Shown: piece after piece, positions 20,199 to 31,509 of the stretch
Position numbering within the stretch: position 1 is the first letter of the stretch
Layout: each line of letters begins with the position of its first letter
Assembly (NCBI GenBank): GCA_019694855.1
Contig: JAIBBD010000003.1
Span: forward strand, 1 to 33,263
Length of the DNA stretch: 33,263 bases
Source: Dehalococcoidia bacterium
GTDB taxonomy: Bacteria > Chloroflexota > Dehalococcoidia > UBA2979
Direction: 5' to 3'
Notes under the pieces: model-generated
What the model was told of the DNA's origin: nothing
What the model saw: the letters and a program-made list of their open reading frames with translations, nothing else
Database searches by the model: none
Translations under genes and position numbers: made by a program

Positions 20199-21410
20199 TC
20201 AGCAGTGATCGAGGTATCCCGGGCCGCCCAGGAGCCGGTCGAGCGTGACCGGTTGCAGTCCTCGCTCCCGCAGTCCGTCGAGAATCAACGGCAGCGCGTC
20301 GATCAGCACCGACCGGTCCGCACCGGGCAGCCCGTCGATCCCGTCATGCAGCAGCACGATGGCCCCCGGATGCACCTGGTCGAGGATCGAGCGCGCCAGC
20401 CGCGCCGCATCGGTTTCTTTCCAGTCGTTCGCCTGCACCTCCCACGTCACCATGTGCATGCCTCGGTCGCGCAGGAGCCTTGATATGAATGGCGTGTGAG
20501 CGCCGTGGGGAGGCCGGTAGTAGGTGGGACAACGCCCGGTCACCCGCTCGATGGCGGCTTCAGTGCGGTCGAGTTCCGGGTACCGCGGGTCGAGGTAGCC
20601 CCACCGCGTGTGCTCGTATGAATGGTTGCCGACCAGGTCGCCGTCCTCGATCAGCGTTCGCACGACCTCCGGCTGCTCCTCGACCGTGCGACCGACGACG
20701 AAAAAAGTGCCCCTGGCATCGTGTGCCGCGAGGATTGCCGCGAGTCGCAGCGTGTCGTCACCGTTCGGGCCGTCGTCGAAGGTCAACGCGACGTACGGCT
20801 GGTCGCGGGGTCCGTCGCTCACCAGCGCTCCGAACCACGAGGCCTGCGCCGAGTTCGCCCCAACCCAGCCGAACGAGAGCAGCATCAACGGCAGCAGGAG
20901 CACCGCAAGCCCGACGCGAGCGGCACGCTCGCCCGTCGCCTCCCCGGTTCCGAGCTCCCCCGCCGCCACGAGGACGAGCGTGCCGCTCGCGAGCTCCAGC
21001 GCGCCCTCGCCTAACCAGGCGCGCAGCCCGAGGAGCCCGATCGCCGCCAGCAGCGACCCTCCGAGGCTCCGCGCGAGACGCTCGGGCGGCAGCAACAGCC
21101 CGACCGCGACCCCGAACAGCAGGCTCGTCCCCGTCGCCCCCGCCAGGTCGGAAACCCAGGGGTACAGCAGGATCGCGAGCAACCCGCAAACCCCGGCGAG
21201 TACCGCGTCGCCCGCCCGCGCCCGCGTCAACCTGCGGACCGCGATCGCTACGGCTACGGCGCCAGCGCTCGTCGCCGCCCCCTGCATCGAGGACGCCCGT
21301 GCCGGCCCCGAAGTGAGCGCAAACGCCGGCACAACCGCCAGAGCAAGCACTAGCGAGCGCGCGGTCGCCGCGCGTGCGGCCCGAGAGCCGGGAGTCGTGA
21401 TACGTTTCAT
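20199..21410 (-). CDS. Membrane-anchored polysaccharide deacetylase (NodB), paralog A
   Basis: A 403-residue protein. Residues 1-200 form a Leu/Ala-rich region with about six predicted membrane helices; the NodB/CE4 domain follows from about residue 205. Its five motifs are visible: TFDDGPN (Asp212 base, Asp213 metal), HSYEH (metal histidines), RPPHG, the Trp-containing DW motif in QANDWKETD, and IVLLHDG. It should remove N-acetyl (or O-acetyl) groups from a surface glycan outside the membrane. It shares the same architecture and the ending LLGGPxYL..C with the deacetylase at 28883-30091. It lies divergently 45 bp from the response regulator gene. Confidence 0.92.
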   Translation of the reverse strand: MKRITTPGSRAARAATARSLVLALAVVPAFALTSGPARASSMQGAATSAGAVAVAIAVRRLTRARAGDAVLAGVCGLLAILLYPWVSDLAGATGTSLLFGVAVGLLLPPERLARSLGGSLLAAIGLLGLRAWLGEGALELASGTLVLVAAGELGTGEATGERAARVGLAVLLLPLMLLSFGWVGANSAQASWFGALVSDGPRDQPYVALTFDDGPNGDDTLRLAAILAAHDARGTFFVVGRTVEEQPEVVRTLIEDGDLVGNHSYEHTRWGYLDPRYPELDRTEAAIERVTGRCPTYYRPPHGAHTPFISRLLRDRGMHMVTWEVQANDWKETDAARLARSILDQVHPGAIVLLHDGIDGLPGADRSVLIDALPLILDGLRERGLQPVTLDRLLGGPGYLDHC

Positions 21411-21420
21411 GGAGGTCGCT

Positions 21421-21440
21421 TCGCCGTGCCGCTACGGCGA
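21421..21440. promoter_or_regulatory. Inverted repeat in the divergent deacetylase/regulator gap
   Basis: TCGCCGT and ACGGCGA pair perfectly around GCCGCT. It fills most of the 45-bp gap between deacetylase A and the response regulator, and could be an operator or a leader hairpin just ahead of the regulator start at 21456. Confidence 0.35.
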
Positions 21441-21455
21441 GCGTGAGAAGCCATC

Positions 21456-22130
21456 ATGCCGCTCGTGCCCACACGCATCCTCATCGTTGACGACAACCCG
21501 GAGCTGCTCTCCCTGCTGAAGCGGGCCTTGCTCCAGGAAGGGTACGAGGTCGTTGCCTGCCCCGACGGTGAGAGTGCCCTCGCCGCCGTCTCCGCGCAGC
21601 TGCCCGACCTCATCGTCCTCGATCTCCTGCTCCCCGATGTCGACGGCCTCGACCTCTGCTTCATGATCCAGGAGATCAGCGATGCGCCCATCTTGATGCT
21701 CACCTCGCGCGACACGGTCGACGACCGTGTCGAGGGGTTTCGTGTCGGCGCCGCGGATTATGTCATCAAGCCATTCGCCATGCGCGAGCTGCTCGCCCGC
21801 ATCGAGGCGCTCGTCCGGCGGCGGCCCGCCGGCGCGCGCCGCATCGAGTACAAAGACCTCGTCGTCGACTTCGATAGCCGCCGCGTCACGCGCGGGGAAG
21901 CCGAGGTCGCGCTCACCCCGAAGGAGTTTCAGCTCCTGATCGCCGTCGCGCGCAACCCGGATCGCGTCGTCACGCGCGAGTCTCTGTTCACCGCCCTTTG
22001 GCCCGACGCCGACACGATCGACGAGAACCTGCTCGATGCGCACATGACGAAGCTGCGCCAGAAGCTCGAGAACAACGGGCAGCCCCGCCTCATCCAGACC
22101 GTCCGAGGCGTCGGATTCGTGCTCCGATGA
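21456..22130 (+). CDS. OmpR/PhoB-family response regulator
   Basis: A 224-residue two-domain regulator. The receiver has Asp12/Asp13, phospho-acceptor Asp56 (LIVLDLLLPD), Thr83 and Lys105 (YVIKPF). The C-terminal winged-helix domain (about 128-224) has ALTPKEFQLLIAVARNPDRV and the ending LIQTVRGVGFVLR. OmpR-family proteins bind direct repeats spaced by 10-11 bp; three TTCAGG repeats at 11-bp spacing lie about 1.4 kb downstream, ahead of the aminotransferase operon. The stop overlaps the histidine kinase start as ATGA. The start 21456 follows GAGAAG; GTG 21465 is also possible. Confidence 0.96.
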   Translation: MPLVPTRILIVDDNPELLSLLKRALLQEGYEVVACPDGESALAAVSAQLPDLIVLDLLLPDVDGLDLCFMIQEISDAPILMLTSRDTVDDRVEGFRVGAADYVIKPFAMRELLARIEALVRRRPAGARRIEYKDLVVDFDSRRVTRGEAEVALTPKEFQLLIAVARNPDRVVTRESLFTALWPDADTIDENLLDAHMTKLRQKLENNGQPRLIQTVRGVGFVLR

Positions 22131-23506
22131 AGGTCCGCTGGCCGCGCCGGCTGTCCACCCGCCTCAGCCTTTCGCTGACGGCCTTGTTCTTCGTCACCTT
22201 CGTATCCGTGGCGCTCTTCGCCGTCTACAACGTCAACCGCATCTACGAACGCTCAGTCGACTCGAACCTCCTCGGCATCGCACACACGGTCGACGAACGA
22301 CTCGCATCGCCCGAGGACACGCCCACTGGCGTCGTCGACGACCTCTCGACCGCCGCTGTCTCCATCGAGCTGATCGGGGCAACTGGCTCCCGCATCGCCT
22401 ACTCCGCGCCGCTGGCGACACATCCGCTCTGGGCCCCTCGCTCACTCAATCCGGCCCCGCCGGATCACGAGGTGTTCCGGACCTCGCGGTTTAACAAGAG
22501 CAGCACGCGTGTGCTGGTGATGCCCTCCCAGCATGCGGAGGACGGCGTCGCCGCGATCGCCGTGAGCAGCCTCGCCCCCGAGTTCCAGGACTCCATCGCG
22601 CGCCTCCTCCTCATCGTCGGCGGCGCGGGCCTCCTCGGTCTGCTCATCACGGTCGGCGGTACGCTCTGGCTCTCCCGTCGTTCGACGCGCGCCCTCCAGC
22701 AACTCGCTGGCAACGTCAGCGCGGCCGCTGCCGCGGGATTCGAGGGCGAGCTGGCCACCCCGGCCGGTGGCGGCCTCGAGGTGGAACAGCTCAGTACGGC
22801 TCTGCACGACCTGGTCCGTCGCCAGCACGACTACCTCCGCCGCGAGCGCGCCTTCTTCGCCGATTCCTCCCACGTCCTGCGCACGCCGCTGGCCATCATC
22901 AGAGGCAACACCGAGCTCCTGGAACGCGACGCCGACACCCCTGAGCGCACGGAGGCCCTCCAGGCCATCAGCCGCGCTGGCGAGACCATGGCCCGGACTC
23001 TCGACGGCCTGCTGCTTCTCTCGAGGGAGGACTCGTCCTCCACCGCGACCTGGGAGGCGTTCTCGCTCTCGGACCTGCTGCAGGTCCTCGCCGGAGAGAC
23101 GCGGATCCTCAACGCCGGGGCCCGCGTCGTGACCGACATCGAACCGAACCTCGACATGGCCGGCGACCCGAGGCAGATCCGCAACCTCCTCTTCGCCGTC
23201 ATTGAGAACGCCGCCCATTACATCCCTGGCGAGGGCACCATCGAGATCGTCGCCCATCGCCGCGAGGACGACCGTGCCGAGGTCGCCGTGCTCGACGACG
23301 GCATCGGCATCACCCCCGACGAAGCCGCGGTCGCCACCGAGCGGTTCCGGCGCGGCCTGCGCGCCCGGCGCCTCAATCCGCCTGGCTCCGGCCTCGGCCT
23401 GGCGATCGCCTCGCGCATCGCCCGCCTCCACGGTGGCAACCTCGCCATCGCCCCCCGTGAGCCGCGGGGCACCACGGTGCGCATCGTGCTTCCGCTGCTC
23501 GGCTAG
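22127..23506 (+). CDS. Membrane sensor histidine kinase
   Basis: A 459-residue kinase. One membrane helix at about 13-35 and a second at about 159-182 bracket an extracytoplasmic sensing domain of some 120 residues with no recognised fold. A HAMP-like linker leads to the HisKA box FFADSSHVLRTPLAII (His249), then the N-box FAVIENAAHYIPGEG, G1 VLDDGIGI and G2 GSGLGLAIASRIARLHGG. The residue after His249 is Val, where Glu/Asp is usual. It starts at ATG 22127, overlapping the regulator stop by 4 bp. The signal is unknown; the setting suggests envelope or glycan status. Confidence 0.95.
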   Translation: MKVRWPRRLSTRLSLSLTALFFVTFVSVALFAVYNVNRIYERSVDSNLLGIAHTVDERLASPEDTPTGVVDDLSTAAVSIELIGATGSRIAYSAPLATHPLWAPRSLNPAPPDHEVFRTSRFNKSSTRVLVMPSQHAEDGVAAIAVSSLAPEFQDSIARLLLIVGGAGLLGLLITVGGTLWLSRRSTRALQQLAGNVSAAAAAGFEGELATPAGGGLEVEQLSTALHDLVRRQHDYLRRERAFFADSSHVLRTPLAIIRGNTELLERDADTPERTEALQAISRAGETMARTLDGLLLLSREDSSSTATWEAFSLSDLLQVLAGETRILNAGARVVTDIEPNLDMAGDPRQIRNLLFAVIENAAHYIPGEGTIEIVAHRREDDRAEVAVLDDGIGITPDEAAVATERFRRGLRARRLNPPGSGLGLAIASRIARLHGGNLAIAPREPRGTTVRIVLPLLG

Positions 23507-23517
23507 CCGATAACGCC

Positions 23518-23545
23518 TTCAGGTTTTCTTCAGGTTTCGTTCAGG
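23518..23545 (+). promoter_or_regulatory. Three 11-bp-spaced TTCAGG repeats (probable response-regulator box)
   Basis: TTCAGG occurs at 23518, 23529 and 23540, exactly 11 bp apart, the first two inside TTCAGGTTT. One-turn direct repeats are the normal binding pattern of OmpR/PhoB-type regulators. The array fills the start of the 90-bp gap between the kinase stop (23506) and the aminotransferase ATG (23597). A CACGAT at 23566-23571 could be the -10 of an activated promoter. I infer that the adjacent response regulator binds here. Confidence 0.7.
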
Positions 23546-23596
23546 CTACCAACCGTCGCAGGTGACACGATCCCCGCCAACAAGGGGAGGGGCCGC

Positions 23597-24715
23597 ATGC
23601 GTGTTCCAGCTGCTTCGATCGTGTTCAACGATGACGACATCGCCGAGGCGCTATCGCTGATCGAATCCAGCCTCCGCAGCGGACAGCTCACCCTCGGCAA
23701 GCACGGCCAGGCTTTCGAGGAGTCCTTCGCCCAGCGTTGCGGGCGCGCCCACGCCGTCGCCGTCAGCAGCGGCACCAGCGCAATCGAAATCGTGCTGCGC
23801 GCCTGCGGCATCGAATCTGGCGAGGTCATCGTCCCCGACAACACGTTCTTTGCGACCGCCGCGGCCGTCGTACATGCCGGCGCCCGGCCGGTCTTCGCGG
23901 ACACGGACCGCGACACCCTCGCGGTCGACGTCGACGATGTCCTCTCCCGTATCACCCCGCAGACGAAGGCAGTCGTTGTCGTGCACATCGGCGGCATCGT
24001 CTCGCCGGAGCTGCCACGCCTGGCCACCGAGTGCGCCGCGCGCGGCATCCAGCTCATCTGCGACGCCGCTCACGCGCACGGCGCGACCCTCGACGGCAAG
24101 GACGCCTCCAATTGGGGCATCGCCTCTACGTACTCCTTCTACCCCACGAAGGTGATGACCTCGGGCGAAGGCGGCATGATCGTCACCGACGACGAGCGCA
24201 TCGCCGACGAAGCTCGGGTCTATCGTGACCAGGGCAAGGCCGGATTCACCAGCAACTTCCACACCCGCCTCGGCGCCAACTGGCGCCTGAGCGAGGTGCA
24301 CGCGGCCATCGGGCTCGTGCAGCTGAAGCGGCTCAACGAGTTCATCGAACGCCGCCGCCAGATCGCCGCCGTGTACGACGACCTGCTGCCCCGCGAGACC
24401 AACCTCACGGCCGTCCCCTGCCAGCGCCTCGACTCGAGCAACTTCTACAAGTACGTCGCCTACCTTCCCGCCGGCGTCGACCGCGCGGCTCTGAAGGCGA
24501 CGATGCGCGAGCGCTTCGAGGTCGGCATGAGTGGCGAGGTCTACGAGTTCCCGCTCCACGCTCAGCCCGTCTTCGAGCCCTTTGTCAGCGGCTCGTACCC
24601 CGTCTCCGACGACGTCTGCGCCCGGCAGGTCTGCCTGCCGGTGAGCGCCCGCATGACCACCGACGACGCCCGCTACGTCGTCGAAAGCCTCGCACGCACC
24701 ATCTCAGGAGGGTAA
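23597..24715 (+). CDS. DegT/DnrJ/EryC1/StrS-family sugar aminotransferase
   Basis: A 372-residue PLP enzyme of the family that aminates nucleotide-linked keto-sugars. The substrate/PLP pattern shows SSGTSAIEIVL (phosphate cup), VPDNTFFATAAAV, LICDAAHAHGA (Asp156 to the PLP ring nitrogen) and the Schiff-base Lys185 in SFYPTKVMTSGEGG. Length is normal. ATG 23597 has GGGGAGG about six bases upstream. It is the first gene after the TTCAGG repeats and its 3' end carries the ribosome-binding site of the next gene. The likely product is an amino sugar nucleotide for a surface glycan; the exact sugar is unknown. Confidence 0.94.
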   Translation: MRVPAASIVFNDDDIAEALSLIESSLRSGQLTLGKHGQAFEESFAQRCGRAHAVAVSSGTSAIEIVLRACGIESGEVIVPDNTFFATAAAVVHAGARPVFADTDRDTLAVDVDDVLSRITPQTKAVVVVHIGGIVSPELPRLATECAARGIQLICDAAHAHGATLDGKDASNWGIASTYSFYPTKVMTSGEGGMIVTDDERIADEARVYRDQGKAGFTSNFHTRLGANWRLSEVHAAIGLVQLKRLNEFIERRRQIAAVYDDLLPRETNLTAVPCQRLDSSNFYKYVAYLPAGVDRAALKATMRERFEVGMSGEVYEFPLHAQPVFEPFVSGSYPVSDDVCARQVCLPVSARMTTDDARYVVESLARTISGG

Positions 24716-24719
24716 CGAG

Positions 24720-25664
24720 ATGAATTCAGCGTCCACGGAAATGCGCGTCGCCGTCACCGGGGGCGCCGGATTTATCGGCAGCCACGTCGTCGACAAGCTC
24801 GTCGAGGCCGGCCACCCCGTCACGGTGATCGACGCAATCGAGCCACACCGCCCGGACGTGGACTGGCGGCCGTGCGATGTCACCAGCTTCGACGAGGTCG
24901 CGCTCGCCGTGCGCGACGCCTCCGCCATCTACCACCTCGCGGCGATGGCCAACGTGAACGACGTCGCCGCGGCCCCCCTTGAGTCGGTCCAGCTGAACGT
25001 CATGGCGACGGCCAACCTGCTGGAGGCGGCGCGCCGCGAGGGCAACAAGCACCTCATCTTCGCCTCCACGGTATGGGTCTACGAGGCCGCTTCGGGCACC
25101 GAGGTGGACGAGGAAACGCCGCTGCGGCCCGATGGCACGAAGCATCTCTACACCGCTGAGAAGGCCGCCAGCGAGATGCTCGTTCACTCCTACAGCCAGC
25201 TCTTCGGCGTGCCGACCACCGTCCTCCGCTACGGCATCCCCTACGGCCCGCGCATGCGCGAGGCGCTCGTGATGCCGATTTTCATCAAGAAGGCGATGGC
25301 CGGCGAGCCGCTCACCGTCGCCGGGGACGGCCTGCAGTACCGCAACTTCGTCTACGTCGAGGACCTCGCCGAAGCCCACGTCCAGGTCCTGCGGCACGAG
25401 GCCACCGGCACCTTCAACCTCGAGGGCCCTCGCGAGGTCTCCATCCTCGAGATGGCCGAGACCATCAACCGCCTGATCCCGACCAGCGCCGGCATCATGC
25501 ACACCGAGGCACGCGCGGGTGACTACCAGGGCCGCGTCGTCTCCCCGGAACGCTCGGCACGAGCCCTCGGCTGGCGCCCCACCACCTCATTCGAGGACGG
25601 GCTGCGCCGCACCGTCGACTGGTTCGTCGAGAAGTGGACGCCGGTAGCCGCGGCCACCGCCTGA
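24720..25664 (+). CDS. NAD-dependent epimerase/dehydratase (extended SDR)
   Basis: A 314-residue extended SDR: NAD-binding GGAGFIGSH (residues 14-22), IYHLAAMANVNDV, catalytic FASTVWVYE (Ser/Thr 116-117) and YTAEK (Tyr144, Lys148), then RYGIPYGPRM and the C-terminal GDGLQYRNFVYVEDLAEAH of nucleotide-sugar enzymes. Reactions in this group include 4-epimerisation and 4,6-dehydration of UDP-, GDP- or dTDP-sugars. ATG 24720 follows AGGAGGG, which overlaps the aminotransferase stop. The aminotransferase needs a keto-sugar and this enzyme could supply it. Which reaction it does cannot be told from the motifs. Confidence 0.92.
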   Translation: MNSASTEMRVAVTGGAGFIGSHVVDKLVEAGHPVTVIDAIEPHRPDVDWRPCDVTSFDEVALAVRDASAIYHLAAMANVNDVAAAPLESVQLNVMATANLLEAARREGNKHLIFASTVWVYEAASGTEVDEETPLRPDGTKHLYTAEKAASEMLVHSYSQLFGVPTTVLRYGIPYGPRMREALVMPIFIKKAMAGEPLTVAGDGLQYRNFVYVEDLAEAHVQVLRHEATGTFNLEGPREVSILEMAETINRLIPTSAGIMHTEARAGDYQGRVVSPERSARALGWRPTTSFEDGLRRTVDWFVEKWTPVAAATA

Positions 25665-25689
25665 GCGCGCCACCGCCCTCCGCTCGCAC

Positions 25690-27672
25690 GTGAGGCCGCG
25701 CCTCATCGCGGTCATGCCCGCCTATGACGAGGCGAGCACGATCGAGGGCGTCCTCGATGACCTGTACCCCCGCGTTGACCGCGTCATCGTCGTCGATGAC
25801 GGCTCGACCGACGGCACCGGGCCCCTGCTCGATCGTTGGGCACAGGACCGCGATCGCTGCACGGTCGTGCACCTCTCCCCCAACCAGGGGCTCTCGGCGG
25901 CCCTGCGAGCCGGCTGGGACCGCGTGCGCGACCTCGTCGCTGAGGGCGTCATCAGCGAGGACGACATCGCCTTCTCCATCGACGCCGACGGCCAGCACGA
26001 GCCGGCGGCGCTCCACGCCCTCGCCGACCGCCTGATCGAGGGCGGCTACGCCCTCGTCATCGGCAACCGCGACCTCTCCTACCACGGTTCATACAAGCGC
26101 CTCGGCAACGGCGTCATGACCTGGATCGGCCGGCTCACCAGCGGCGCCCCGCTCCATGACATCGAGAGCGGCTACCGCATGTTTCGCGTCGGCCCGCTCC
26201 TCGAAGCCCAGCAGTATTACCGTGGCTATCGCTACAGCGAGACGGTCGAGGTGGCCGTGATCCTGGCTCGCCTCGGCCACCGCGTCGATAACGACCTCCG
26301 CATCGAGGTCCCCGTCGCTCGCACGCGCACCCGCCTCAAGGACGCCGCCGTCGACGCCTTCGCGATGCCGCTCGCCTGGTACCGCCTCGCCTGCTGGCGA
26401 GACTGCCCGCAGCCGCTGCGCTCCGTCGCGGGCGCCACCCTGGCCTTGCTGCCGTTCCTGGTGCTCGCGGCCGCGCTGCTGGTGATGCTCTCGCACCCCT
26501 ACTTCGTCGCGGACGACGCCGCGCAGTCCTACTACCACGTGCGGTACCTGAGCGAATCCCTCTTTACTCGCCACGAATGGCCCTGGCACGTCGCGACACT
26601 CGAGGGGGGCCACGCCGTGATGTTCCCCTACGCCGCCATCCCCTGGATTCCCCTCGCGTTCCTGTACCCGCTGCTCGGCGACTGGATCGTGACCGCCTCG
26701 ATGGCCGCCGGCTCGGTCTTTCTGGTCTACGGCGTGCAGCGCTGGCAGCCCGCGGTCCGGCGCCCCGTGCTCCTGGCGGTCTGCCTGCTCAACCCCATCT
26801 TCTGGAGCATAGTCCTCGAGTTTCAGCTGCCCACCGTCTGGGCCTTCGGCGCCGCCGCCTGCGGCGCGGCCTCACTCCGCGAACGACATCCGAGGGCCGC
26901 GCTGGCCCTCGGGGTCGTCGCCATCGTCGCGCACGCGATGATGGGGCTCGTCGCGCTGGTTGCCTGCGTCGCGCTGGATATCGTCACGGGCCGGACCCCG
27001 CTCCGTGCCACACCCTGGGTGGTGGCTTCGGTGCTGCTGGCGAGCCCGGCGATGTACTCCTTCGCACGCACCCCGCTCCTCGATGAGGTGCCCGCCCACG
27101 TCGTCCTGCAGTCAGCCATCGACAACATGCTCAGGCTCACGGTGCTCGCCCTGCCCGCGCTCCTCGCCGCCCGCCCGTGGCTTGCGATGCGCTGGCAGAC
27201 GCCACTGCTCGCTGCCGGCGTCGCACTCACCCTCCTCGTCCTCAGCTTCGAGCCACCCTCCGGGCTCTGGGAACGCTCACACCCTCGTTTCGCCGAGTAC
27301 CTCCAGCTCCACCCGGTCGACCCCGCGCTCGTCTACCGTGTCGTCACGACGACGAACCACGAGGATGGCATGATCGAGTTCCTCCGCGGAGGCGCCACAC
27401 TGGCCGGTGAGTTCTTCACAGAGTCCGAGGGCCATCGCAGCTTCCGCACTGCCCAGCGTTACGCCTGCTTCCTGGACTCGAACCGCGTCGGCCGCGTCGT
27501 CCTGTCCGGCGAGTACCTGCACGCGCATCACACCGACGAGGTGTCGCTGCTCGACCGGCTGGTGACATCCCGAGCGGCTGCGAAGGAATACGACGGGACG
27601 GACGGGACGGTTGCCTACCGCATCGGCGACCTCTCGTCCGTGACCGACGCGGGAGCGAACTGTGGTGGCTGA
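25690..27672 (+). CDS. GT2 glycosyltransferase fused to a polytopic membrane domain
   Basis: A 660-residue fusion. Residues 1-235 are a GT2 (DPM1-like) glycosyltransferase: MPAYDEASTIEGVLDDLYP, VVDDGSTDGT (Asp36/37), NQGLSAALRAGWD and the metal-binding FSIDADGQHEP (Asp98, Asp100). From about residue 245 the protein has some nine membrane helices and a C-terminal soluble segment of about 110 residues. This second part is homologous to the whole protein at 30103-31383: MFPYAAIPWI...PLLGDWIVTA (from 311) and EFQLPTVWAF recur there. GT2 domains of this type usually charge a polyprenyl phosphate carrier, and the membrane half may use or flip that product. Start GTG 25690, 25 bp after the SDR gene. 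The MFS start overlaps its end. Confidence 0.9.
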   Translation: MRPRLIAVMPAYDEASTIEGVLDDLYPRVDRVIVVDDGSTDGTGPLLDRWAQDRDRCTVVHLSPNQGLSAALRAGWDRVRDLVAEGVISEDDIAFSIDADGQHEPAALHALADRLIEGGYALVIGNRDLSYHGSYKRLGNGVMTWIGRLTSGAPLHDIESGYRMFRVGPLLEAQQYYRGYRYSETVEVAVILARLGHRVDNDLRIEVPVARTRTRLKDAAVDAFAMPLAWYRLACWRDCPQPLRSVAGATLALLPFLVLAAALLVMLSHPYFVADDAAQSYYHVRYLSESLFTRHEWPWHVATLEGGHAVMFPYAAIPWIPLAFLYPLLGDWIVTASMAAGSVFLVYGVQRWQPAVRRPVLLAVCLLNPIFWSIVLEFQLPTVWAFGAAACGAASLRERHPRAALALGVVAIVAHAMMGLVALVACVALDIVTGRTPLRATPWVVASVLLASPAMYSFARTPLLDEVPAHVVLQSAIDNMLRLTVLALPALLAARPWLAMRWQTPLLAAGVALTLLVLSFEPPSGLWERSHPRFAEYLQLHPVDPALVYRVVTTTNHEDGMIEFLRGGATLAGEFFTESEGHRSFRTAQRYACFLDSNRVGRVVLSGEYLHAHHTDEVSLLDRLVTSRAAAKEYDGTDGTVAYRIGDLSSVTDAGANCGG

Positions 27673-28855
27673 GCCGGCTGCGCCGGACCGCTCTCGCACC
27701 CATGCGCTGATCCTTCCCGCCACGCTGCTCGCGGTCTTGCTCCTCGACGCCGCGACAGTCGTCGTGGTCGTCTCGTACGGCCAGCCGTACCTCCTGCGCG
27801 TGCTGAAGGCACCCGAGTCGTACCCCGCCTTCGGGTTCGGCCTCTACGGCATCGCCAAGCTCGCGGGCTCGATCGCCGGGGGCCGCCTCGCCGATCGCGC
27901 CGGCCTCCGGCGCTCCACGACCTGCTCCGCGCTCCTGCAGACCAGCGGCATCCTGACAGTCGTCGTGAGCGGCAGCGCGATCGGATACCTCGTTGGCGCC
28001 GCCGTCGTCTCACTGGGCACGGCCCTCGCCTGGGTGCTCATCTTCAGCGCCGTCGGCGAAGCCAGCCACCGCGAGACACGAACCCGTGCCACTTCGTTCA
28101 TGGCCCTCGCCTCCGCCAGCGGCGTCGCGAGCGGATTTGCCGTCGGCGTGCTCGGCACCCTCGGCGGGCCGCGCTGGTGGCCATTTGTACTTGCGCTGGC
28201 CGCCTTCCTCGGCACCAATACCCTGCTCGCCACCACGGGCCGGTCGAGGCGAGACACGCGCATCCCGTCCCGCGAGCGGGCGTCCGAGGCAGCCCACCGC
28301 GAGCCGCCGATGTGGGACGTCCGCGCTCTCGCGGCTTTGCACTTCGCCTTCGTCGGCGGGCTGCTCGGGCTCTTCGGGCCGCTCCTGCTATCCCACCTCA
28401 ATCTCAGCACGGTCGCCGCCGCCTCGACGCTCGCGCCCGCGGCGTTGGCCGCCCTCGTCAGCATGCTACTCACGAGTCGGCTCGGCGCGCCGCGCCGGCA
28501 GCGCGCGACCATGTCCGTCCTGTACGGCGTCACTGGCTTCGCGCTCGTGACGCTCCTCCTCCGGATCGAAGCAGTCTGGGTCGGCGTCTGGCTCGTCCCA
28601 CTGGCGGCGGCCATCGCCGCCCTCAATCCGCTGCTCAACGCTCGCCTCATCGACGCCGCGGCAGCGACGGCCCGGCCGAGCGTGGCCATGGGCACGCTGC
28701 TCTTCGCGGAGGGTCTCGGCTCGGCCCTCGGCCCGCTCGCCGTCGGCTTCGTCATCCAGCAGGTCGGACTGCGCGCCGGCATCTGGGTCCTTGCCGCGAC
28801 CGCGGGGCTCCTCGTGACAGCGGGACTCCGCCGTCGCAGTCTCGCGCCGGCCTGA
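27662..28855 (+). CDS. MFS transporter
   Basis: A 397-residue major facilitator with about twelve hydrophobic helices. Motif A is visible in the loop after helix 2 (GGRLADRAGLRRS, about residues 75-87), and a cytoplasmic central loop rich in Arg and Glu (GRSRRDTRIPSRERASEAAHR) separates the halves. Its start GTG 27662 overlaps the GT2 fusion by 11 nt; GTG 27665 is equally possible. Its place at the end of the aminotransferase-SDR-GT2 run suggests it exports or imports a sugar-related compound, but the sequence gives no substrate. It converges on deacetylase B with a 27-bp gap. Confidence 0.9.
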   Translation: MVAEPAAPDRSRTHALILPATLLAVLLLDAATVVVVVSYGQPYLLRVLKAPESYPAFGFGLYGIAKLAGSIAGGRLADRAGLRRSTTCSALLQTSGILTVVVSGSAIGYLVGAAVVSLGTALAWVLIFSAVGEASHRETRTRATSFMALASASGVASGFAVGVLGTLGGPRWWPFVLALAAFLGTNTLLATTGRSRRDTRIPSRERASEAAHREPPMWDVRALAALHFAFVGGLLGLFGPLLLSHLNLSTVAAASTLAPAALAALVSMLLTSRLGAPRRQRATMSVLYGVTGFALVTLLLRIEAVWVGVWLVPLAAAIAALNPLLNARLIDAAAATARPSVAMGTLLFAEGLGSALGPLAVGFVIQQVGLRAGIWVLAATAGLLVTAGLRRRSLAPA

Positions 28856-28882
28856 CGCCCCGAGCCCATTGCCCGCCCCGAG

Positions 28883-30091
28883 TCAGCACGCCGGCAGGTA
28901 CGCCGGCCCGCCGATCAGGCGGTCCAGCGACACGACCTCGAGTCCCTTCGCCCTGAGTCCGTCGAGGATCGCGGGCAGCGCCCGCACGAGCACCGTCCGG
29001 TCGACGCTCGGGTCGCCGTCGAGTCCGTCGTGCAACAGGATGATCGACCCCGCCCGCGCGCGCTCGACGACCGCGGCCGCCAGCCGCTCCGCGTCCGTCG
29101 CCGCCCAGTCGCTCGCCGACACGTCCCAGCTCACGAGGCGCAGGCCATGGCGTTCGATCAGCCACGAAAGCAGCGGCGTGCGGTTGCCGTGCGGCGGGCG
29201 GAACAACGCCGGGCACACCCCGGCCACCTCCCGGATCGCTCGTTGCGTCTCATCGAGCTCCGGATACCGAGGATCGAGGTAGTCCCACTGCCCATGGGTG
29301 AACGAGTGGTTCCCCACAATGTGCCCGCGCTCCACCAGCGCACGCGTGATCTCCGGCCGCTCCTGAACCGCCCGGCCGACCTCGAAAAACGTCCCCCGCG
29401 TCCCGTGCTCCTCGAGGATGCGCGCGACCTCGAGCGTGGCCGTTTCGTTGGGCCCGTCGTCGAACGTGAGCGCCACTGCCGCCTGCTCACGTGGGCCGTG
29501 CACGACCACCGCACCGAACCACGGCACGGTCGGCGAGGTGCTGCCGACGCACCCGGCCGCCGCGAACGTGCCGATGACCACCGCCCCCCCGAGGGCAATC
29601 CCCCGGCGTCGCCTCGGCACACCGCCTCCTCGCGGGACAACGGTTCCCAGCAGCCCCAGCGCGACGACGCTTGGCAACAGGGCGCCCACGAACGCGTTCG
29701 CGAGCATTGCCAGTCCGCCGCCCGCCACCCCGAACAGCAGCACCGCATCTCGGACACGCCTTCGCGGCAGCAGCAGGCCACAGGCTGCGCCTGCGAGGAC
29801 CGCCACGACCAGCACCGACAGCACGTACGAGGCCCAGGGCAAGAGGAACAGCGCGACCGCAAGACAGCACAGGCCGACGACCGACCGCGCGCGCGATGGC
29901 GGTTCACCGCGCCCGCTGGCGAGCACCGGCACGACGGCCATCGCGAGGACGGCCCCGCCGATGGCCGCGGCCACGTGCGATGCCGACCCCCCGGGCACCC
30001 CGGCGAGCAGGCCAACCACCATCCCCGCACCGAGGACAGGAAGGACCGTATCTCGCGCGCGGATTCCTGTCGCCGAACGTGCCTTCTTCAT
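28883..30091 (-). CDS. Membrane-anchored polysaccharide deacetylase (NodB), paralog B
   Basis: A 402-residue protein with the same layout as paralog A: about six membrane helices in residues 10-185, then a NodB domain with TFDDGPN (Asp211/Asp212), HSFTH, RPPHG, SASDWAATD and IILLHDG. In the first 84 residues of the catalytic core I count 53 identities to paralog A, and both end GGPxYLxxC. The lead helices are much less similar. A possible lipobox-like GCVGST lies after the last helix (near residue 182), so processing to a lipoprotein cannot be excluded. ATG 30091 is only 11 bp from the divergent gene start. Confidence 0.92.
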   Translation of the reverse strand: MKKARSATGIRARDTVLPVLGAGMVVGLLAGVPGGSASHVAAAIGGAVLAMAVVPVLASGRGEPPSRARSVVGLCCLAVALFLLPWASYVLSVLVVAVLAGAACGLLLPRRRVRDAVLLFGVAGGGLAMLANAFVGALLPSVVALGLLGTVVPRGGGVPRRRRGIALGGAVVIGTFAAAGCVGSTSPTVPWFGAVVVHGPREQAAVALTFDDGPNETATLEVARILEEHGTRGTFFEVGRAVQERPEITRALVERGHIVGNHSFTHGQWDYLDPRYPELDETQRAIREVAGVCPALFRPPHGNRTPLLSWLIERHGLRLVSWDVSASDWAATDAERLAAAVVERARAGSIILLHDGLDGDPSVDRTVLVRALPAILDGLRAKGLEVVSLDRLIGGPAYLPAC

Positions 30092-30096
30092 ATGCT
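30091..30096 (+). promoter_or_regulatory. Possible leaderless -10 (TATGCT)
   Basis: TATGCT ends six bases before ATG 30103, which would place the transcription start on the start codon. The -35 is not clear; the only candidate, CCTGTC at 30066-30071, lies inside deacetylase B. Confidence 0.35.
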
Positions 30097-30102
30097 GTCG
30101 CG

Positions 30103-31383
30103 ATGCAACTGAGCAGCTCGGAACAACAGCACTGGATCGGTGACCGGCTGCTGCTGTACGGCGTGCTCGCCTTCTGGTGCGTCGTCCTCGGCGCGTTCTC
30201 GCTGCACCGCATCGTCGTCTCGAACGACTCCCTCAGCAACTACGCCCACGTCTGGTACATCGCGGACCGCCTCCAGACCGGGAATGGCATCCCCTATCAC
30301 TTTCCCGGCCTCGCACACGGGGAAGCGCTGACCTTCCCATACGCCGCGGTCCCGTGGTTGACCGCCGCGCTGTTGCGCCCGCTGCTGGGCGACTGGGTCG
30401 TCACCGCCTGGCTGCTGCTCGGCTTCCTCGGCCTGCTCGCGGCGGTCTGGGCCGCCTTCCCCGAGCTTCGCAGGCCGTTGCCAGCCGCGGTCTTCCTCGT
30501 AAACCCGTTCCTCATCGAGGCCGTCCTGCTCTTTCAGCTCCCCTTCGTCTGGGCGACGGCGTTCCTGTTCGCCGCGGTCGCGGCCTGGCGCCGCCAACGA
30601 GTCTTCCTGGCCACCTTGCTCGCCGCGCTCTGCCAGTCGACTCACCCCGCCGTCGCCGCGCCCCTCCTCGGTTGCCTCGTCCTCGTCGCGTTGCCCTTCG
30701 AACCGAGACGCGTCCGCCTGCTCGCGGCCTACGCCGCCGCCACAGCCCTCTCCCTCCCCGCCGCCTGGATGACCCTGAGTTCGCCGACGTTCAGCGATGC
30801 CGGATTGGGCGCAACCCTCGCCAACTTCGTCGCCACCGTGGGATTGCGCAGCGCCGTGGTCGTTGCCGGCCCGCTGCTCGCCTGGGTGTCGCCGCGACTC
30901 TCGCCTGCCGTGCTCCGAGGCGTTTTCGTTGCCTCCTGCGCCCTCAGCGCGGTGCTCGTGCCGCTGCAGCCCACCGACTACGCGTGGGGAGCCCTCCGCC
31001 GCCAGCCCGACTACGACATCGCGCCCTATCTCGCCTCGGCCGCCTTCACGCCCGGCGCGGTCTATCGCGTCCTCCGCGCCCACGATGGCAAGGTCACGAT
31101 GTATCAGGTGCTCCAGGCGGGCGGCGTCCTCGATTCCGAGTTCTTCCCCGAAAGCTTCGCCCGGCGCAGCTGGGGCTCCATCGAGGACTACCGGGCCTTC
31201 CTCGACGAGCGACAGGTCGACGTCGTCCTGCTCTTCCCGTCCTACACCGATCGCTTCCGCACGAACGAAGCCGACCTCCTCGCCGCCCTCACCGCCGAGG
31301 GCTGCGCCACCCGCCTCGCCGACGAGGATGCCTACGCCGCGATTTCAGTCACCCGTTGCCGCCAGCATCCGAACGCGCCCTGA
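30103..31383 (+). CDS. Stand-alone membrane protein homologous to the GT2-fusion C-terminus
   Basis: A 426-residue protein with about nine or ten membrane helices and a C-terminal soluble segment from about residue 305. Early motifs VSNDSLSNYAHVWYIADRLQ, TFPYAAVPWL (from residue 77), PLLGDWVVTA and LLFQLPFVWATAF match residues about 280-400 of the GT2 fusion; the shared soluble end reads PGAVYRVL and SEFFPESFARRSW against PALVYRVV and GEFFTESEGHRSF. The architecture (conserved acidic Asp after helix 1, many helices, extracytoplasmic tail) resembles GT-C glycosyltransferases, but I cannot assign a family. No GT2 domain is fused here. It ends 50 bp before the tRNA gene. Confidence 0.83.
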   Translation: MQLSSSEQQHWIGDRLLLYGVLAFWCVVLGAFSLHRIVVSNDSLSNYAHVWYIADRLQTGNGIPYHFPGLAHGEALTFPYAAVPWLTAALLRPLLGDWVVTAWLLLGFLGLLAAVWAAFPELRRPLPAAVFLVNPFLIEAVLLFQLPFVWATAFLFAAVAAWRRQRVFLATLLAALCQSTHPAVAAPLLGCLVLVALPFEPRRVRLLAAYAAATALSLPAAWMTLSSPTFSDAGLGATLANFVATVGLRSAVVVAGPLLAWVSPRLSPAVLRGVFVASCALSAVLVPLQPTDYAWGALRRQPDYDIAPYLASAAFTPGAVYRVLRAHDGKVTMYQVLQAGGVLDSEFFPESFARRSWGSIEDYRAFLDERQVDVVLLFPSYTDRFRTNEADLLAALTAEGCATRLADEDAYAAISVTRCRQHPNAP

Positions 31384-31433: not shown

Positions 31434-31509
31434 GCCCCCGTAGCTCAGTGGACAGAGCAATGGACTTCTAATCCATCGGTCGGAGGTTCGAATCCTCCCG
31501 GGGGCGCCA
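31434..31509 (+). tRNA. tRNA-Arg (anticodon TCT)
   Basis: A complete 76-nt cloverleaf: acceptor GCCCCCG/CGGGGGC, D stem GCTC/GAGC, anticodon stem ATGGA/TCCAT with loop CTTCTAA (anticodon TCT, reads AGA), T stem GGAGG/CCTCC with loop TTCGAAT, discriminator G and an encoded CCA at 31507-31509. All stems are perfectly paired. Confidence 0.98.

Follow-up and report, generated by a model that had tools for sequence, protein, structure and literature searches.

Multi-component transmembrane glycosylation systems, including CsbB/GtcA/YfhO, GtlA/GtcA/GtlB and GtrA/GtrB/Gtr, have reported flippases of the GtrA/SMR, Wzx or MATE type (PMC8035078, PMC11127046). The locus described here is best read as a variant of these systems, and the general scheme is not new: like them, it would combine a GT-A polyprenyl-phosphate-sugar synthase with a GT-C transferase, leave flipping to a transporter and add the sugar outside. 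However, in the present locus the synthase and the transferase are fused in one chain, an MFS protein occupies the flippase slot, and the set is extended by dedicated CE4 deacetylases (in some relatives as MFS::CE4 fusions), its own amino-sugar genes, a two-component pair and a GT-C without a Pfam model. In its main text, the review PMC8035078 uses none of the words deacetyl-, fused, fusion or MFS.

Functionally, the closest known process appears, by analogy, to be the galactosamine decoration of arabinogalactan in mycobacteria and corynebacteria, which involves Rv3634c, PpgS (Rv3631)/Rv3632 and Rv3779, and in which flipping and deacetylation were ascribed in 2022 to 'as yet unidentified factors' (PMC9671496). 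Shared elements are a GalE-type epimerase (in relatives of the locus, where a second SDR gene, SDR2, matches the role of Rv3634c; PMC9671496), a PpgS-like GT2 (43 bits against the PpgS equivalog NF058614, below its cut-off of 370), a GT-C transferase and deacetylation to a free amino sugar. In contrast, the GT2 and the GT-C are fused here, and the locus itself includes a deacetylase and a candidate flippase; arabinogalactan is the mycobacterial acceptor. The Arn operon (ArnBCADTEF with PmrAB), which places Ara4N on lipid A (PMC12748117), has enzyme classes and two-component control in common with the locus, but possesses ArnE/ArnF where an MFS stands here. CE4 deacetylases such as Bc1960, PgdA and NodB share the catalytic fold and motifs, whereas those described here carry an N-terminal multi-TM region or an MFS fusion and are steadily linked to a GT-C. 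In the literature searched, which covers few subscription journals, no CE4-coupled or fused system of this kind was found, nor any characterised pathway with exactly this set, in line with what the sequence-only reading had proposed, and no homologues were found in an already characterised polymer pathway.

The window, a stretch of 33,263 nucleotides, derives from a 2.46 Mb metagenome-assembled genome (MAG) in 130 contigs, 96% complete, which belongs to the Dehalococcoidia (Chloroflexota) and is known from environmental DNA only. Profile and ORF analysis confirmed nine genes at 20,199-31,383 with the domain types first noted (Table 1), and the codon-position G+C agrees with these ORFs. The two-component pair, aminotransferase, SDR, GT2 fusion, MFS transporter, two deacetylases (NodB1 and NodB2) and stand-alone membrane domain (MEM2) had been proposed to share one locus, and all were found there; the two kinds of part said to occur twice do so, with MEM1 and MEM2 homologous at 29-32% identity and NodB1 and NodB2 46% identical. 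The genes from the response regulator through the MFS (21456-28855) follow one another in the same direction, closely spaced or slightly overlapping, and read as a probable single operon. NodB2 and MEM2 are divergent, with 11 bases between their start codons.

Table 1. Features of the candidate glycosylation locus, in window coordinates.
Feature	Coordinates	Strand	Evidence
NodB1, CE4 polysaccharide deacetylase, N-terminal multi-TM	20199..21410	-	PF01522, 91.9 bits; motifs
OmpR/PhoB-type response regulator (RR)	21456..22130	+	PF00072 and PF00486
Membrane sensor histidine kinase (HK)	~22127..23506	+	HisKA, HATPase_c; ATG 22127 overlaps RR stop
DegT/DnrJ/EryC1/StrS sugar aminotransferase (AT)	23597..24715	+	PF01041, 343 bits
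Extended SDR on nucleotide sugar	24720..25664	+	PF01370, 168 bits
GT2 (GT-A) domain, residues 1-235	25690..26394	+	PF00535; DAD motif kept
MEM1, inferred GT-C-fold domain fused to GT2, residues 236-660	26395..27669	+	Homology to MEM2
GT2::MEM1, whole fused gene	25690-27672	+	
MFS transporter, candidate lipid-linked-sugar flippase	27662..28855	+	PF07690, 84.9 bits
NodB2, predicted CE4 deacetylase behind 7 TM helices	28883..30091	-	PF01522, 90.8 bits; AF2 model
MEM2, predicted stand-alone GT-C-fold glycosyltransferase	30103..31383	+	AF2 model; start placed at ATG 30103

Several further observations concern the layout. In 8/8 loci looked at, the predicted starts of NodB and the stand-alone GT-C are head to head and separated by no more than ~12 bases (window 30089-30105; L018 15524-15527; L074 16164-16167; L033 2357-2360), and in three of the eight the candidate ATGs overlap as a CATG palindrome, so that no space exists between them for ordinary promoters or ribosome sites. 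A promoter scan returned no consensus site, such a scan being uninformative for this GC-rich group. Just downstream of MEM2, a tRNA-Arg (TCT) at 31434-31509 could mark an integration point, and an aldehyde ferredoxin oxidoreductase gene (PF01314; 32025-33158, frame open to the window end) is a neighbour outside the system.

The favoured reading, with a probability of about 0.64, sees in the locus a regulated multi-component transmembrane glycosylation system, through which a free-amino (cationic) sugar is attached to an envelope glycan or glycoconjugate on the extracytoplasmic side. An amino nucleotide-sugar would be made by the SDR and the DegT aminotransferase, and the GT2, judging from its family, would load this sugar on polyprenyl phosphate at the cytoplasmic face. 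The lipid-linked sugar would then be flipped, most likely by the MFS, a role suggested by the conserved slot of this protein and by its fusion with the deacetylase in relatives. At the outer face, where topology places it, the membrane-anchored CE4/NodB enzyme would strip the N-acyl group from this presumed substrate, and the GT-C domain, whose fold comes from a predicted structure, would pass the sugar to the acceptor. The two-component pair, from its position, probably regulates the system. Deacetylation of lipid-linked amino sugars, raised in the sequence-only reading, appears the best-fitting mechanism.

The membrane domain (MEM) has no Pfam family match, and its profile has no sequence match in the PDB. 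MEM1 and MEM2 are 29% identical in one alignment and 32% identical over 382 residues in a search (E 4.5e-41), which marks them at the sequence level as true homologues. The AlphaFold2 model of MEM2, built with 24 homologues in the alignment and no ligand, reached a pLDDT of 91.5 and a pTM of 0.90. The suggestion to compare the shared domain with GT-C folds by structure prediction was borne out: in a Foldseek search of the PDB, the top five matches were solved GT-Cs (ALG12 with E 4e-4, AglB and AftA), and lower matches, ALG9 and GPI mannosyltransferase I, are likewise GT-C enzymes. The TM-scores are modest (0.33-0.45), so the model supports the GT-C fold class for MEM2 and stops short of a family assignment; for MEM1, the fold would follow from the MEM2 model. 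Furthermore, an aspartate (Asp42 in MEM2, Asp41 in MEM1) is invariant in all aligned rows and situated directly after TM1, the site that has been proposed for the catalytic Asp in a number of solved GT-Cs (PMC11127046). Both marks of the GT-C superfamily, a membrane fold, here a predicted one, and an acidic residue after TM1, are present in MEM.

The GT2 domain matches AglJ, PgaC/IcaA, PpgS and ArnC in NCBIfam, every one below its cut-off, and GtrB (sll0501) and ArnC weakly in the PDB; at the family level, it is probably of the polyprenyl-phosphate-sugar-synthase kind. The aminotransferase keeps the PLP-lysine motif SFYPTK in the alignment, and its PDB relatives are perosamine synthetase and ArnB, while those of the SDR are UXS and GalE. 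In the SDR, the stretch ASTVWVY is invariant in 14/14 aligned orthologues. Dehydratases and decarboxylases of the SDR family carry Asp-Glu or Ser-Glu at the position of its Val-Trp. Because Val-Trp replaces these residues while the Ser/Thr and YxxxK stay, the enzyme probably performs an oxidoreduction that feeds the transaminase, rather than a dehydration or decarboxylation. The GalE-like SDR2 is present in many full loci of relatives, and none was seen in the window. A domain search identified no N-acyltransferase or formyltransferase among the locus genes.

NodB1 (TFDDGP, HSYEH, RPPHG, DW and LHD) and NodB2 each retain all five CE4 motifs. The AF2 model of NodB2 consists of seven N-terminal helices, this helical part being of moderate confidence only, followed by the CE4 domain, whose closest Foldseek match is the peptidoglycan GlcNAc deacetylase Bc1960 (6.7e-18). 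The K/R count of NodB2, 16 inside versus 1 outside, places the CE4 domain outside, and that of NodB1 (6 versus 8 by a simple charge scan) gives no clear side. Short NodB relatives possess a single N-terminal TM and, in most of them, a basic N-terminus, and the NodB copy on C68, another contig of the same genome, starts with the lipobox-like signal VRRLLAAATVLVSLLVVACGG. Combined with the extra TM of the MFS fusions, the NodB2 charges, the TM of the short relatives and the C68 signal support a predicted location of the CE4 domain outside the membrane. These MFS::CE4 fusions, in which a complete MFS transporter precedes the CE4 domain with an extra TM helix between them, were seen at L079 (6539-8542), L080 (10649-12646) and L085 (6825-8804); the examined stretch of the L085 copy did not show the first CE4 motif. 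At L048 (963-3131), in a MAG titled Acidimicrobiales, a fusion joins the SDR with a CE4 domain that is without most of the catalytic motifs. A candidate origin of the membrane region at the NodB N-terminus, a half-MFS relic, was tried with hhalign (probability 6% against MFS, 0.5% against the GT-C control) and is not supported.

With respect to the acceptor, an Arn/NaxD-type pathway, in which an amino sugar is placed on lipid A-like phosphates, is very improbable. The enzyme classes are shared (DegT, SDR, ArnC-like GT2, ArnD-like NodB and ArnT-like GT-C), as is the two-component pair, but LpxC and a formyltransferase domain in the locus genes are absent, the catalytic Glu of the ArnA decarboxylase is missing from the SDR, and the CE4 domain is predicted outside, whereas ArnD is described as acting before translocation (PMC12748117). 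The LpxC search, positive in E. coli, gave no match in the 96% complete genome, which contains four PBP transpeptidase matches, and lipid A is therefore an unlikely acceptor. Arn-type lipid A modification was rejected on the missing LpxC and formyltransferase together with the SDR residues (an invariant Trp for Glu). For the Dehalococcoidia, a monoderm envelope bearing an S-layer has been described, with peptidoglycan in some orders (PMC10284905); the missing LpxC and the PBP matches agree with this.

The MEM domain was detected in 10/60 close relatives, in 18/294 genomes of the class and in 3/400 genomes sampled across the phylum, all three of them Dehalococcoidia. A scan of named genomes with an alignment retrieved 20 loci, among them one whose record is titled Chloroflexia and two whose records are titled Actinomycetota MAGs, MAG titles being liable to error; the same scan with MEM2 as a single protein gave zero matches. 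Profile-based synteny revealed a full arrangement, NodB< GT-C> and RR-HK-AT-SDR-GT2(::GT-C)-MFS-(NodB)-SDR2, which occurs with variations, often including the second, stand-alone GT-C, in families f16, f33, f34 and f59 and in named MAGs. A reduced arrangement, (MFS-)GT2::GT-C-NodB, without the aminotransferase, SDR and two-component genes, occurs in the window's own family, and the third GT2::GT-C and NodB pair of the window's genome, on C68, is of this reduced type without the MFS. In two MAGs titled actinobacterial, the order is GT2, NodB<, GT-C>, AT<. Gene order in relatives, the comparison proposed at the outset, thus shows a set conserved across several Dehalococcoidia families and not scattered. 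Near the third GT2::GT-C/NodB pair, a split MprF-like pair (LPG_synthase_C and LPG_synthase_TM; L020 13003-15712) was seen, another possible envelope-charge modifier.

Of 26 GT-C loci from 20 genomes, 22 have a CE4 gene no more than 2.5 kb away, where CE4 gene numbers would predict 0.2; among the remaining four, two have a CE4 gene ~5.5 kb off but still inside their gene block, and two are cut off by a contig edge. The MEM and NodB distances correlate (Mantel r 0.73, 0/5000 permutations), shared species history contributing to this value. Taken at the level of sequence and gene order, these data support one conserved system. The adjoining of unrelated systems, namely an exopolysaccharide or antibiotic-sugar operon with its MFS exporter beside separate deacetylases, is improbable: genes for MFS and DegT/SDR proteins are widespread and of varied use, and the reduced loci dispense with the aminotransferase, SDR and two-component genes, but the identical set and order recur in several families, and the set of GT2, NodB, GT-C and aminotransferase recurs in the two actinobacterial MAGs. 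Since the reduced loci do not contain the SDR/aminotransferase pair, the deacetylase in them may act on plain GlcNAc or GalNAc.

Deacetylation could also follow the transfer: NodB would then act in place on an envelope polymer to which the GT2/GT-C has added HexNAc, or on peptidoglycan. The resemblance of the CE4 fold to Bc1960, its predicted position outside and the PBPs of the genome are consistent with this order of events, which is nevertheless rather unlikely: the NodB genes stay close to those of this GT-C family and diverge in step with them, and the transporter fusion fits a membrane-lipid substrate better. In the favoured reading, where deacetylation precedes transfer, the MFS is the candidate flippase. 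It occupies a fixed slot in relatives and is fused to NodB in three; no GtrA/SMR, Wzx or MATE flippase type is found among the locus genes, and the MFS occupies that slot. The MFS is missing near many reduced loci, and three matches to GtrA-type proteins, which could flip the lipid, exist elsewhere in the window's genome.

The duplicated parts had been taken to suggest two parallel modification steps, and this holds better for the transferases than for the deacetylases. The stand-alone GT-Cs form a 100/100 clade apart from the fused type, spanning Dehalococcoidia and the two actinobacterial MAGs, and thereby MEM1 and MEM2 are, by sequence phylogeny, ancient paralogues, kept together in the window, in f16 and in L033. 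In the NodB tree, NodB2 groups with the NodBs of stand-alone GT-Cs and NodB1 with the fused-type ones of the window's family, with weak support; AU tests of this assignment gave p values of 0.09-0.43, at which the alternatives are not rejected, and a recent NodB1/NodB2 duplication gave p 0.22. Swapping the MEM-NodB pairing inside the window left the distance correlation no worse, and consequently MEM1-NodB1 and MEM2-NodB2 are not established as cognate pairs. The second NodB was found in the window's locus only, and many relatives have one GT-C and one NodB. For the transferases, two parallel steps are accordingly likely, with the two GT-C enzymes probably serving two acceptors or two linkages; for the deacetylases, they are no more than possible.

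A more specific form of the favoured reading is tentative and falls short of even odds: an undescribed GT-C family would operate in monoderm bacteria as part of a four-function glycosylation apparatus, with an MFS that flips polyprenyl-P-HexNAc, a CE4 that deacetylates it outside, and two ancient GT-C paralogues directed to two acceptors. If true, it would point to the flippase and deacetylase types missing from the mycobacterial galactosamine pathway, and the locus, together with the MFS::CE4 fusions of its relatives, offers a concrete hypothesis for both roles. MEM defines a GT-C family without a Pfam model. The addition of lipid-linked amino sugars is one way in which bacteria make their surface more positive, and the locus represents a candidate envelope modification in the Dehalococcoidia, a class with few cultured members.
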